64,000 bases of DNA. It comes from Bdellovibrio sp. ArHS (lineage in GTDB: Bacteria > Bdellovibrionota > Bdellovibrionia > Bdellovibrionales > Bdellovibrionaceae). This document shows, in pieces, positions 3,056 through 8,245 of this stretch. The translations under genes were made by a program, and so were the position numbers. The stretch is from the NCBI RefSeq assembly GCF_000786105.1, contig NZ_JTEV01000013.1, positions 62,001-126,000 of the forward strand. Direction: 5' to 3'. Each line of letters starts with the position of its first letter. The stretch's first letter is position 1. The notes below the pieces were generated by a model. That model made no database searches. It saw only the letters and a list, made by a program, of their open reading frames with translations, and was not told where the DNA came from.

Positions 3056-4663
3056 ATGGAAATTTTAGACAGTCACATAGATACGAACTCGGCCGACTTT
3101 AAAGCCAACCGCGAAGCAATGTTGGGCATCGTCAATGAATGGCGTGACAGAGTCCATCTTGTCAAACAGGGCGGTGGAGAAGACGCGACGAAAAAACACA
3201 AAGCGCGCGGCAAACTAACGGCCCGCGAACGCATCGAGGCTCTGGTTGATGGTGGCACCGCATTTCTGGAGTTCTCGACGCTGGCCGCTTGGGATATGTA
3301 CGAAGGGCAGGCACCAGGGGCGGGTGTGATCACGGGCATTGGCGTGATTCATGGAACGGAATGTGTGATCGTGGCCAACGATGCCACCGTCAAAGGGGGG
3401 ACGTATTTCCCGATGACCGTGAAAAAGCATTTACGTGCGCAAGAGATCGCTTTTGAAAATGGACTTCCGTGTATTTACCTTGTCGATTCCGGCGGAGCTT
3501 TCTTGCCTATGCAGGCGGATGTGTTTCCAGATCGCGATCATTTCGGAAGAATTTTTTATAATCAAGCCCGCATGTCAGCGGCGAACATTCCCCAAATCGC
3601 CGTGGTGATGGGATCTTGTACCGCTGGAGGCGCCTACGTTCCAGCGATGAGTGATGAAACAGTTATCGTTAAAGAAAACGGAACTATCTTTTTGGGGGGG
3701 CCGCCATTAGTGAAAGCGGCAACCGGGGAAGTGGTGGACGCGCAAGAATTAGGGGGCGCGCAAGTGCACTGCGAGACCAGCGGTGTGACGGACCACTTTG
3801 CTGAAGATGATCAACACGCGATCGAAATCACGCGCTCAATCGTTGCCCACTTGAATCACAAGCGGGCCGTGCAAATGAAGCTCATGCCGGTCGAAGAGCC
3901 TCTCTTTGACGCAAAAGAAATCTATGGTGTAATTCCCAAAGACAGTCGTGTTCCCTTTGATGTGCGTGAGGTGATCGCGCGTATCGTAGATGGGTCTCGT
4001 TTCCATGAGTTTAAGCCTTTATTCGGAAAAACCTTGGTCACGGGTTTTGCGCATATTTGGGGAATGCCCGTGGGAATTATCGCGAATAACGGTGTTTTGT
4101 TCAGCGAAAGCGCGCAAAAAGCCGCGCATTTCATCGAGCTGTGTGAACAGCGTGAAGTGCCTTTGATCTTCCTGCAAAATATCACCGGCTTCATGGTCGG
4201 TAAAAAATACGAAAACGAAGGTATTGCTAAACATGGCGCCAAAATGGTGATGGCCGTTTCCAATGCTCATGTTCCTAAGTTTACCGTGGTGATCGGTGGT
4301 TCTTACGGCGCTGGAAACTACGGCATGTGTGGCAGAGCTTATCAGCCGCGCCAGCTTTGGATGTGGCCAAATGCCAAGATCAGCGTGATGGGTGGCGAGC
4401 AGGCGGCGAATGTTCTTTTGACTGTCAAGTTGGATCAGATGGCCGCAAAAAAACAAAGCCTGACCGCCGAAGAGCAAGCGGAATTTAAACGCCCGACGCT
4501 GGAAAAGTACGAGCGTGAAAGTTCCGCCTACTACTCATCAGCTCGGATCTGGGACGATGGCATTATTGATCCTGCGGACACTCGCCGTGTCTTGGCATTG
4601 GGAATTTCCGCAAGCCTTAACAAATCTTGGGGTGAAAAATCTCAAGGTGTCTTTAGGATGTAG
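3056..4663 (+). CDS. mccB: Methylcrotonyl-CoA carboxylase, carboxyltransferase (beta) subunit
   Basis: 535 residues, the usual length of MCC beta. The enzyme adds CO2 from carboxybiotin to 3-methylcrotonyl-CoA in leucine breakdown. The N-terminus [16 protein letters not shown] matches the family start (S-x-x-D-x-x-S-x-x-F-x-x-N). Two crotonase-fold halves are visible; [18 protein letters not shown] and [19 protein letters not shown] are the oxyanion-hole segments, the second ([18 protein letters not shown]) characteristic of MCC rather than propionyl-CoA carboxylase. [13 protein letters not shown] is also typical. There is no clear Shine-Dalgarno site before ATG at 3056, so translation may be coupled to the gene upstream. 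The next gene begins two bases after the stop. Propionyl- or geranyl-CoA carboxylase are less likely given the neighbours. Confidence 0.93.
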
Positions 4664-4665
4664 TT

Positions 4666-5445
4666 ATGTCTTTCGTAGTTGTGACCGAAATGAATCAAGT
4701 GGCTTACGTCAAGCTTCACCGGCCTGACGTGCGTAACGCTTTTAATCCCGAAATGATCGAAGAACTGACCAACACTTTTCGTAATCTGAACGACCGCAAA
4801 GATTTACGAGCGGTCGTTCTGCAAGGAGAAGGGAAAGCCTTTTGTGCAGGTGCTGATCTGAATTGGATGCGCGAGATGGTTCAGTTTTCTTTCGAACAGA
4901 ACCGTCAGGATTCGTTGAAGTTGTTTAATATGTTTGAAACCATGGCTCAGTGTCTGTTGCCGGTTATCGGGATGGTTCATGGCGCCGCCTTTGGTGGCGC
5001 TTTGGGATTGATTGCCATCTGTGATGAAGTGATCGCGGAAGAAGGCACGCAATTCTGTTTTAGCGAAGTGAAGCTGGGAATTGCTCCCGCAGTCATTAGT
5101 AGTTTCGTTAATCGTAAAGCGGTGCCGGGCAAGGTCCGCCCTCTGATGCTTTCAGGAGTTGTGTTCAACCCCCATGTGGCTCAGCAGGCAGGTCTCGTGA
5201 CGGACGTTGTTCCTGTCGGAGAAGGCCACACGGCGGTGCAAAAGATCGTGCACAACTATATGCAGTGCGGTCCCGAAGCCGTCCGTGAAACAAAAAAACT
5301 TTTGAATGATTTGAATTTTATGTCCTGGTCTCAGCAAAAAGAGGCGACAACTCTGCTCATTGCAGAACGCCGCGTGAGTGCCGAAGGTCAGGAGGGACTT
5401 AAATCCTTCCTGGAAAAACGTGAACCATCGTGGAGATCACTATAA
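4666..5445 (+). CDS. liuC: Enoyl-CoA hydratase family, probable methylglutaconyl-CoA hydratase
   Basis: 259 residues, full length for the crotonase superfamily. FCAGADLNWMREM is the oxyanion-hole segment, and the NWMR form is typical of methylglutaconyl-CoA hydratases (LiuC/AUH), as is the second oxyanion segment HGAAFGGALGLIAICDE. The enzyme hydrates 3-methylglutaconyl-CoA, the product of MCC, to HMG-CoA, which fits its place between the two MCC subunit genes. The C-terminus ends in helices (GLKSFLEKREPSW) usual for the family. It starts two bases after the mccB stop, and its own TAA shares its last base with the ATG of the next gene (TAATG), so the operon is translationally coupled. Confidence 0.9.
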   Translation: MSFVVVTEMNQVAYVKLHRPDVRNAFNPEMIEELTNTFRNLNDRKDLRAVVLQGEGKAFCAGADLNWMREMVQFSFEQNRQDSLKLFNMFETMAQCLLPVIGMVHGAAFGGALGLIAICDEVIAEEGTQFCFSEVKLGIAPAVISSFVNRKAVPGKVRPLMLSGVVFNPHVAQQAGLVTDVVPVGEGHTAVQKIVHNYMQCGPEAVRETKKLLNDLNFMSWSQQKEATTLLIAERRVSAEGQEGLKSFLEKREPSWRSL

Positions 5446-6923
5446 TGGGTAAGTTCGCAAGAATCGCCATCGCCAATCGAGGCGAGGTGGCTGTTCGTAT
5501 TATTAAGGCCTGTGAAGAGCTGGGCATCGAAACCGTTCTTCTTCACTCCGAAGCAGACATTCATTCTCGCGCTTATAGAATGGCGACAAAAACTATTTGC
5601 ATTGGTCCAGCTGCGACGGCAGAAAGTTATTTAAATATTAAAGCCAATGTCGATGGGGCTTTAGCCGGAGGCGCTCAGGCGATTCATCCCGGGTTTGGCT
5701 TTCTTTCTGAAAATGCGGACTTTGCGGAAGCCGTTGCCAAGGCGGGTTTGACCTTTATCGGTCCTGCGGCGGAATCCATTCGTTCTTTGGGAGACAAAGT
5801 TCATTGTAAAGAGCTTGCTAAAAAAGCAGGCCTGCCCTTGGTTCCGGGCTACCAGGGTGAAAATCAAGACGTGGCTCATCTGATTTTGGAAGCAGAAAGA
5901 ATCGGTTTTCCGGTGATTGTGAAAGCGGCAGCCGGTGGCGGTGGTCGCGGTATGAAGCTGATCAAGTCTTCTGCTGAAGCCAAGGAGCTGATCGAGTCAG
6001 CTCAGCGCGAAGCGCAGTCGGCTTTTGGTTCGCCAAAAGTTTTTCTTGAGAAGTATTTAGATCGCGCAAAGCACATCGAGTTTCAGATTTTTGGCGACAG
6101 CACCGGCAATGTGATTCATTTCTTTGATCGCGAGTGCTCGGTGCAACGTCGGCACCAAAAAATTATTGAAGAAGCGACATCGCCCTCTTTGACGGAAGAT
6201 CTTCGCCGTCGCATGGGCGAAGCCGCGTGTGCAATTGCGACTTTGGGTAAATACAAAGGCGCCGGAACAGTAGAGTTTCTTCTTCAGGATGGCGAATTTT
6301 ATCTGTTGGAAGTGAATACGCGTCTTCAAGTTGAGCATCCCGTCACCGAAGAAGTGTTGGGTGTGGATCTGGTAAAAATGCAGATTCTGACAGCTCAAGG
6401 TGATTTCGTGCACGACCCCAAGCAGGTCCGCGTGCCACGCGGTCATTCCATCGAATGTCGCATCTACGCCGAAAACCCTTTCATGGGCGGCGTGCCGTCA
6501 ACAGGTCTTCTAGGTCATGTCGAATGGCCTGAAGGTCCGGGAAGGCGCTATGAATACGGCTTCGATTCGGGCGACACCATCACGCCTTATTACGACCCGA
6601 TGATTGCCAAAGTTATCGTCTGGGACGAGACGCGGGCTCGCGCCATCCAAAAAATGATTCGCGTGCTTAAAGATTCCGTGGTTTTTGGCGTTCATACGAA
6701 TATTCCATATTTGATCGAGATTCTTTCACACAAAGAATTTATCATAGGTACGATGACAACACGTTTTATAGAAACTTATTTCGCCGACGCACTGAAAGAG
6801 CCGGAGTTGACAAGTTTGGATAAAAAAATTGCAGAAGGAGCTCTTCTGCAGCTTCGTGGCGGCGGCACTTCTGTCGAAAGCACCAACAATTCACCATGGG
6901 CCACTTACTGGAGAGGCATCTAA
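5445..6923 (+). CDS. mccA: Methylcrotonyl-CoA carboxylase alpha part 1: biotin carboxylase subunit
   Basis: 492 residues. ATG at 5445 is chosen because GGAG lies nine bases upstream; a GTG at 5430 in frame has no site. The protein carboxylates biotin with bicarbonate and ATP. Order: N-terminal domain (ARIAIANRGEVAVRIIKACE, IHPGFGFLSENADFAE), ATP-grasp domain with glycine-rich lid AAGGGGRGMKLI, the biotin carboxylase signature YLLEVNTRLQVEHPVTE (metal Glu and catalytic Arg), and C-terminal domain (SIECRIYAENP). It stops at about residue 492, just where MCC or acyl-CoA carboxylase alpha subunits usually continue into the carrier. The carrier follows as a separate gene directly after the stop codon and in the same reading frame, so the alpha subunit is split by one TAA. 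Confidence 0.93.
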   Translation: MGKFARIAIANRGEVAVRIIKACEELGIETVLLHSEADIHSRAYRMATKTICIGPAATAESYLNIKANVDGALAGGAQAIHPGFGFLSENADFAEAVAKAGLTFIGPAAESIRSLGDKVHCKELAKKAGLPLVPGYQGENQDVAHLILEAERIGFPVIVKAAAGGGGRGMKLIKSSAEAKELIESAQREAQSAFGSPKVFLEKYLDRAKHIEFQIFGDSTGNVIHFFDRECSVQRRHQKIIEEATSPSLTEDLRRRMGEAACAIATLGKYKGAGTVEFLLQDGEFYLLEVNTRLQVEHPVTEEVLGVDLVKMQILTAQGDFVHDPKQVRVPRGHSIECRIYAENPFMGGVPSTGLLGHVEWPEGPGRRYEYGFDSGDTITPYYDPMIAKVIVWDETRARAIQKMIRVLKDSVVFGVHTNIPYLIEILSHKEFIIGTMTTRFIETYFADALKEPELTSLDKKIAEGALLQLRGGGTSVESTNNSPWATYWRGI

Positions 6924-7304
6924 ATGGAAATCAAAGTCAGAGTCGACGGAGTTGATTACAAAGCTCATGCTCAGTTAATCAAAGGTACACTTTGGGTTCA
7001 TCACAATGGACGTGTCTTTACCTTGGATGCATCCTCAGGACGTAAGTCGCGAAGAAAAGCTGGTGCTGCGGGTTCTTCCGACCAAGTTATGGCTCCTATG
7101 CCTGGTAAGGTGACGAAAATTTTGGTTTCGACCGGGGATTCCGTAACGGCAGGGCAGGCGGTTCTGGTCATGGAAGCGATGAAAATGGAGTACACTCTGA
7201 AGGCGGATATTGCCGGCATGATCAATAGTATCGATTGTACTGTCGGCGAACAGGTCGCTTTAGGAAAAGCACTTATTAAAATTAAACCAGCTTCCGATAC
7301 ATAG
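6924..7304 (+). CDS. Methylcrotonyl-CoA carboxylase alpha part 2: biotin carboxyl carrier
   Basis: 126 residues, the swinging arm that carries biotin between the carboxylase and carboxyltransferase active sites. The biotin site is VMEAMKMEY with Lys87 as the biotinylated residue; the flanking MAPMPGKVTKILVSTGDSV is the other half of the biotinyl hairpin fold. The first 35 residues (IKVRVDGVDYKAHAQLIKGT) look like the end of the BT domain that links the two parts in fused alpha subunits. ATG follows the upstream TAA with no spacer and in the same frame; GGAGAGG ends seven bases before it, so it has its own ribosome site. The next gene starts five bases later. Confidence 0.92.
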   Translation: MEIKVRVDGVDYKAHAQLIKGTLWVHHNGRVFTLDASSGRKSRRKAGAAGSSDQVMAPMPGKVTKILVSTGDSVTAGQAVLVMEAMKMEYTLKADIAGMINSIDCTVGEQVALGKALIKIKPASDT

Positions 7305-7309
7305 GGTCT

Positions 7310-8245
7310 ATGAAAAAGTCAGTCGTAATTGTCGAAATGGGATTAAGAGATGGTCTGCAAAACGAAAAAAATGTTTTGGATTCAGACACTCGTGTGGAGT
7401 TTGCAAAGCGACTGATTGAAGCGGGAACCAAACGTGTGGAGATCGGAGCTTTTGTATCTGCAAAATGGGTTCCTCAAATGGCGGGAACTGCCGAAGTGAT
7501 CGCCAAGACGCATTCCTTGGTGAAGTCAGGAGCCATTTCTAAAAAAATCGAGTTCTCGGTTCTGGTGCCGAACGAACGCGGAATGCAGGATGCAATAGAA
7601 AGCGGTGTAAAAGAAGTCGCTATCTTCGCGGCTTGCTCAGAATCCTTCTCGTTAAAAAACATCAACTGCACAATCGACGAAAGTTTCAAACGCTTTGAGC
7701 CCGTGATGGCTTTAGCGAAAAAACATAAGATCAAAGTGCGCGGATATCTTTCAACCTGCTTTGGTTGTCCTTTTGAAGGCAAAGTTCCTGAAGCGCGGGT
7801 ATTAAAGTTGGCGCAGCGAATGCATAAGCTCGGTGTTTATGAAATTTCAATCGGGGATACTATTGGCGTTGCGGACGTCGGTCAGGTTGAGTCTCTCTTT
7901 AAAAAGCTAAAGAAGGTTGTTCCCGTAAAAAAATTGGCGGGACACTTTCATGATACTCGCGGACAGGCCTTAGCAAATATTCTTGCGGCTTACAAGTTGG
8001 GCGTGAATGTCTTTGATGCAAGTTTAGGTGGATTAGGCGGATGCCCTTACGCTCCCGGCGCCACTGGCAACGTGGCCACTGAGGATGTGGTTTACATGTT
8101 CCACGGAATGGGCGTAAAGACGGGTCTTAACTTAGATAAATTAATTCAAATGAACTCTTGGGTCGCAGAAAAGATTCGGCATCCGCTGCCTGCAAAAGTC
8201 GGCAAGGTTGGAAGACTAATGCCTTTGGGAAAAGTAGTCCGCTAA
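7310..8245 (+). CDS. mvaB: Hydroxymethylglutaryl-CoA lyase
   Basis: 311 residues, family length. It splits HMG-CoA into acetoacetate and acetyl-CoA, the last step of leucine degradation. [13 protein letters not shown] near the N-terminus holds the metal-binding Asp and catalytic Arg (RDGLQ). [11 protein letters not shown] and [12 protein letters not shown] are the TIM-barrel metal (HxH) region, and [14 protein letters not shown] near residue 240 is the HMG-CoA lyase signature with the active-site Cys. It is the last gene of the operon, five bases after the carrier gene. A 172-base gap follows; I see no clear hairpin terminator in it. Confidence 0.95.

Follow-up and report, generated by a model that had tools for sequence, protein, structure and literature searches.

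A predicted three-subunit 3-methylcrotonyl-CoA carboxylase in Bdellovibrio sp. ArHS, with biotin carboxylase and biotin carrier encoded by abutting genes

The window, meaning the whole 64,000-nucleotide stretch of Bdellovibrio sp. ArHS that was analysed, contains a run of forward-strand genes predicted to encode the parts of a 3-methylcrotonyl-CoA carboxylase (MCC) together with two neighbouring enzymes. The features are as follows, in window coordinates:

3056..4663, + strand: putative MCC beta subunit (carboxyltransferase), 535 aa (Pfam Carboxyl_trans; alignment to 3u9r; MCC-type Phe, F163, after an insertion)
4666..5445, + strand: enoyl-CoA hydratase family gene in the LiuC position, 259 aa (Pfam ECH_1)
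5445..6923, + strand: putative biotin carboxylase (BC) subunit, 492 aa from the ATG at 5445, with TAA at 6921-6923 (Pfam; alignment to 3u9s)
6813..6920, + strand: C-terminal tail of the BC, with the predicted helix of the BT domain (residues 457-471) and a hook ending in a W-R motif (W489, R490) (alignment and models)
6910..6916, + strand: putative Shine-Dalgarno sequence GGAGAGG within the codons of Trp489-Arg490-Gly491 (sequence, codon bias, anti-SD match)
6921..6926, + strand: junction of stop and start, TAA-ATG here and TAATG in the closest relatives (sequence and relatives)
6924..7304, + strand: putative biotin carrier subunit, 126 aa (Pfam Biotin_lipoyl at residues 54-120; alignment to 3u9s)
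6927..7028, + strand: predicted remainder of the BT barrel, four strands within carrier residues 2-35 (strands from the read-through model, aligned to the control)
7182..7184, + strand: Lys87 of the AMKM motif (sequence)
7310..8245, + strand: HMG-CoA lyase, 311 aa (NCBIfam PRK05692 above cut-off; Pfam HMGL-like)

The start of the BC gene is overlapped by the last base of the enoyl-CoA hydratase gene (position 5445), and an alternative in-frame GTG start lies upstream at 5430. All three biotin carboxylase domains (Biotin_carb_N, CPSase_L_D2 and Biotin_carb_C) were identified by Pfam in the BC protein, and Lys87 in the AMKM motif of the carrier is presumably the site of biotinylation. A preliminary description of this DNA had placed the carrier ATG immediately after the BC stop codon and in the same reading frame, and had given the carrier its own GGAGAGG seven bases before that ATG; both statements were confirmed from the sequence, the spacer to the ATG at 6924 being CATCTAA (7 nt). 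Promoter and terminator scans gave no excess of hits over shuffled sequences (4 versus 5.3 and 7 versus 7.5, respectively).

In the textbook form of MCC, biotin carboxylase and carrier belong to a single alpha chain and are held to the beta core by its BT domain. Residues 9-493 of the alpha chain of Pseudomonas aeruginosa MCC (3u9s) align with residues 5-487 of the BC, and residues 537-650 with residues 5-120 of the carrier, while approximately 35 residues of the linking region are absent between the two. Since 3u9s aligns to both proteins, both are taken as MCC alpha parts; together with the Pfam domains, these alignments uphold the earlier view that an MCC alpha chain is present here in two genes and that the carrier retains a BT remnant. 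The beta protein aligns with its P. aeruginosa counterpart from end to end (3u9r, E 4.8e-233). It has been described, in the excerpts of PMC4673880 considered here, that MCC is told from GCC and PCC by an N-terminal helix extension of the beta subunit and by an active-site Phe after a short insertion. By alignment only, residue 1 of the window beta corresponds to residue 21 of the P. aeruginosa protein, which is how the extension was assessed. The Phe (F163, in DRDHF) is common to the MCC betas of four Proteobacteria (L181, L182, L184, L186), and the GCC-like beta of L185 possesses neither insertion nor Phe. The enoyl-CoA hydratase and HMG-CoA lyase genes flank the BC-carrier pair as a leucine (liu) gene neighbourhood. 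The best reading of these sequences is that the window genes encode a three-subunit MCC for leucine breakdown, with carboxylation of 3-methylcrotonyl-CoA as the predicted reaction. The Pfam family of the MCC alpha BT domain (PF21139) proved a weak test: the read-through chain was not listed at E up to 1, and the fused control chain L155 also fell below the curated cut-off (E 0.00079; 20.2 of 31 bits).

To compare BT domains, the window chain was read through the stop for modelling only. The model of the control, a fused Bacteroidota chain (L155), has a BT domain consisting of a helix (456-477), a hook of low confidence that contains GWRN (486-489), and a set of eight strands (495-574). In the window model there is a helix (457-471) and then a group of four strands (495-528; pLDDT of about 85-90), joined by a disordered linker to the biotinyl domain; in alignment A2 these four strands fall on control strands 5-8. 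The BC thus keeps the BT helix and hook and the carrier four of the eight barrel strands; according to the models, the cut would lie between hook and barrel, with strands 1-4 gone. With L126 left out, most Bdellovibrionales rows have about 84-90 codons between the BC stop and the biotin Lys; families f16, f17, f19, f22 and f25 have 107-135, and f24 and f27 have 68-73. As this distance varies by family, the barrel appears to have been eroded to different degrees. In the parts of PMC4673880 used here, one Trp of the hook is described as buried in the beta subunit.

The extent of the split was determined using loci from 59 relatives searched with the BC, MCC-beta-anchored stretches from a sample of the phylum (part only of the 120 genomes with an MCC beta match) and 80 named collection loci. 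Duplicates, defined by identical BC residues 21-400, were removed, which took 174 rows to 152. The Bdellovibrionota account for 119 distinct rows, with 106 split, 7 fused and 6 truncated at the BC and dropped (L032, L054, L093, L130, L145, L151), so that 106 of 113 readable loci are split, a count over related and hence not independent rows. All 33 outgroup chains are fused (638-680 aa). They comprise 28 Bacteroidota rows found by BC search, one of which (L155) was checked for the beta Phe and lacks the MCC Phe, and five plasmid records of Proteobacteria or Actinomycetota, these being five of six taken from 425 matching, as L183 has no BC beside it. In nine of 40 beta-anchored loci no BC was present within the stretch (L066, L072, L076, L081, L083, L090, L097, L099, L100); some of these stretches stop at a contig end, and the alpha genes of others may sit elsewhere. 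A two-gene state kept in 106 distinct loci is far beyond chance, and on this comparison the split is real and old, an arrangement common to the Bdellovibrionota relatives.

The position of the carrier start is conserved more closely than its frame. All 106 carrier starts lie within -5 to +16 nt of the BC stop, at offsets of -1 (46 loci), +2 (43), +3 (5), +4 (6) and others (6), with the reservation that starts were chosen by a heuristic rule favouring an ATG close to the stop. The two codons share four bases (NTGA) in 46 loci and one base (TAATG) in 43, as is typical of translationally coupled genes. This arrangement, with stop and start adjoining or overlapping from relative to relative, suggests a coupled pair, as in termination-reinitiation. 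The frame of the carrier relative to the BC, which is independent of the choice of start, is divided 90, 11 and 5 among the three possibilities, the last being the same frame (the window, L033, L119, L122 and L147). Abutment in frame (5/106) is therefore not beyond chance, and the continuity of frame across the stop that would mark a recoded gene is confined to these five loci. Among 22 readable relatives in the genus the junction is TAATG in 20 and TAAGATG in two. The two nearest (BC 95% and 94% identical) have TAATGG in place of the TAAATGG of the window, whose junction differs from that of the nearest by a single A. It is because of this one extra A that the window shares a frame across its stop, and judged against the relatives, the shared reading frame is a local coincidence.

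A ribosome-binding site appears to be written into the end of the BC itself. The BC tail carries the motif SPW...WRG(I/V) or WRN(V/I), which aligns with GWRN of the fused chains; across alignment A2, in split and fused rows alike, W489 and R490 hardly vary. In the window the Trp-Arg-Gly codons, TGG-AGA-GG, contain GGAGAGG. The Arg of a C-terminal [WF]R is encoded by AGA or AGG in 75 of 78 split loci, whereas 14.7% of the 2834 Arg codons elsewhere in these genes are of this type; the 78 are the split rows that have [WF]R among their last nine residues, which 28 of the 106 do not. Between -16 and -4, 95 of the 106 carrier starts have an anti-SD match of 4 nt or more and 57 have one of 5 nt or more, compared with 22% and 4.6%, respectively, of sites drawn at random from these BC genes; 11 starts are without a 4-nt match. 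The codon bias alone is not proof, since the fused Bacteroidota (L153-L180) show a weaker excess too, with AGR at the GWRN Arg in 19 of 28 chains against a background of 31%, although no gene starts there. The Proteobacteria with the motif at the aligned place (L181, L182, L184) use AGR at the Arg in none of three.

Taken together, the locus is read, with a probability of about 0.8, as encoding an MCC with three separate subunits, whose carrier is translated by coupled re-initiation, whose two alpha genes arose by fission of a fused gene followed by about three re-fusions in relatives, and whose shared frame is accidental. Having completed the BC at the TAA, ribosomes would start again on the adjoining carrier ATG, directed there by the Shine-Dalgarno sequence within the last BC codons (Trp-Arg-Gly), as the conservation of both elements suggests. 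The BC would supply the catalytic domain and, from the BT assembly domain, its helix and hook; the carrier would supply the remaining BT barrel, here four strands, and the biotinyl domain, in which Lys87 would be biotinylated. The half barrel of the carrier may dock on the BC helix, and both proteins together on the MCC beta core, as in the solved fused relatives. The fission most likely took place in a Bdellovibrionota ancestor, right after the conserved GWRN-like motif, with barrel strands lost and about three re-fusions thereafter; it is in favour of this fission point that the split follows a motif kept in fused chains.

The preliminary description had regarded the gene as split by a single in-frame stop codon and had left a role for read-through, by which some fused MCC alpha protein could still be made. 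The window does present BC, TAA and carrier without a gap in one frame, as do L033, L119, L122 and L147, but the carrier lies in another frame in 101 of the 106 split loci, the nearest relatives included, where read-through would not fuse the proteins. The carrier also has its own ribosome-binding site and start, and a read-through chain would be without half the BT barrel. Read-through was rejected on the carrier frame, and the single-stop wording falls with it; as the shared frame is accidental, read-through is most improbably of consequence, and since a fused product could be formed in the window and not in most relatives, it would not be a conserved mechanism. A recent nonsense mutation, already discounted in the preliminary description, or a sequencing error in a fused gene can be given practically no weight, even though the genome is a draft in 47 contigs with a short A run at the junction. 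All 22 readable same-genus genomes, whose junctions it had proposed comparing, are split and none is uninterrupted, the 23rd ending at a contig edge; this, with the 106 of 113 across the Bdellovibrionota, refutes a recent origin. Nor would an error in the A run account for the stop: dropping the extra A keeps the stop and both proteins and merely shifts the carrier frame to that of the relatives.

The direction of change is less firmly fixed. BC trees were built with 94, 78 and 77 rows plus additions. The 94-row tree requires at least four state changes, three of them forced by well-supported branches, and a more careful 78-row tree agrees with it. With fused outgroups, the BC tree can be read as a single fission with three later re-fusions (f18; f26; L060 paired with L091), although equally short alternatives exist for f18. 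The seven fused Bdellovibrionota alpha chains (L060, L073, L074, L077, L082, L084, L091) are 573-614 aa in length; being shorter than the outgroup chains, they were probably re-fused after BT strand loss. L123, labelled as a Streptomyces griseus MAG, falls firmly among the Bdellovibrionota BCs and is probably a misnamed bin.

Alternatively, the two-gene state could be ancient and kept in the Bdellovibrionota, the fusions having occurred elsewhere and separately in three Bdellovibrionota lineages. A separate BC is found also in AccC and in the second carboxylase of this genome, and when these (E. coli AccC and BC2, both split) are added as root, the Bdellovibrionota MCC BCs are not one clade in the best tree, branching on both sides of the fused Proteobacteria and Bacteroidota. 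Because the two sequences shift the Bdellovibrionota rows in this way, the fission history is insecure from the BC tree alone. A single clade of Bdellovibrionota BCs was not rejected, however (AU test, p-AU 0.224), and BC divergence, relative to beta, is faster than in four Proteobacteria, which can pull the BC toward the root. Mean identity among split rows is 51% for BC and 69% for beta, with 56-66% and 64-76%, respectively, in the four Proteobacteria. The MCC beta tree (rough bootstrap, not settled, with the GCC row L185 on a long branch) unites the Bdellovibrionota in one clade (98/98) that lies beside or inside Proteobacteria and excludes GCC, Bacteroidota and Proteobacteria; the alpha chains fetched from these outsiders are fused. 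The fused f18 and f26 rows stand among split rows in it, the number of re-fusions having been read from the newick by inspection. With one beta clade and one BC clade not rejected, secondary fission is probable, and retention of an ancient split is considered unlikely.

A further reading concerns stoichiometry. Because each carrier of the main predatory order keeps only four BT strands, two carriers might close one eight-stranded barrel round the single BT helix of each BC, a doubtful proposal suggested by analogy. If true, the holoenzyme would hold two biotin carriers per BC, a stoichiometry that to our knowledge has not been described for MCC, and the re-fusions would mark lineages that have returned to one to one.

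Most Bdellovibrionota examined thus appear to run MCC alpha as two proteins, and the main predatory order to have lost about half of the BT barrel, which offers a natural experiment on the role of the BT domain. The locus would also be an example of gene fission in which a new ribosome-binding site was cut from the codons of a conserved Trp-Arg pair, with about three re-fusions available for comparison. Fused reference chains in databases would cause split BC genes to be misnamed as an acetyl-CoA carboxylase subunit. A search of open-licence PMC papers, with subscription papers outside its scope, found none on a split MCC alpha or on this operon in Bdellovibrio.

A second three-gene acyl-CoA carboxylase was identified in the same genome (L201 3212-6883, G000:C19), consisting of a carboxyltransferase, a BC (500 aa) and a carrier (175 aa, with a long BT part), and it is also split. 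The BC C-terminal domain has two matches in the genome, namely the BCs of the window and of L201, and AccA (TIGR00513) has no match above the curated cut-off in this 96% complete genome. With no AccA match and no other BC, the second acyl-CoA carboxylase may be the one on which fatty-acid synthesis depends.

Separate BC and carrier proteins are known in other carboxylases. In three-gene acyl-CoA carboxylases such as L201, a BC of about 500 aa with a BT-like tail is followed directly downstream by a separate carrier, as in the window; the L201 carrier has its Lys about 138 codons past the stop, against 86 in the window, and the L201 carboxyltransferase groups apart from MCC beta. Excerpts of Lombard and Moreira (PMC3199775) define two-subunit XCC by BC and carrier in one alpha chain, and report MCC in 2011 only from Alpha-, Beta- and Gammaproteobacteria; at this locus a stop and a separate carrier start divide the two, as in the split loci generally. 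The GeneTack coupled pairs (PMC3711429, as far as its text was available) have the second start within 10 nt of the stop, as does the window, and include a cluster named 'Biotin carboxylase' classed as translational coupling.

Among characterised enzymes, the two-subunit (alpha6 beta6) MCC of P. aeruginosa (LiuB/LiuD, 3u9s/3u9r) is the one to which the BC, carrier and beta of the window align. The window differs from it in that alpha consists of two proteins and about 35 BT residues (four barrel strands) are missing. The Azospirillum operon has the same gene order as the window, namely beta, hydratase, alpha and HMG-CoA lyase. In the two-subunit pyruvate carboxylase of M. flagellatus (5ks8), as presented in the portions of PMC5059739 at hand, the assembly domain is likewise shared between chains, with the helix from the BC subunit and the strands from others. 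The half barrel per carrier fits this pairing of sheets, which is why two carriers per BC were considered above. According to the same portions, the carrier of that enzyme, unlike that of the window, is still part of the carboxyltransferase chain, and its two four-stranded sheets are supplied by two subunits, giving an alpha2beta4 assembly.
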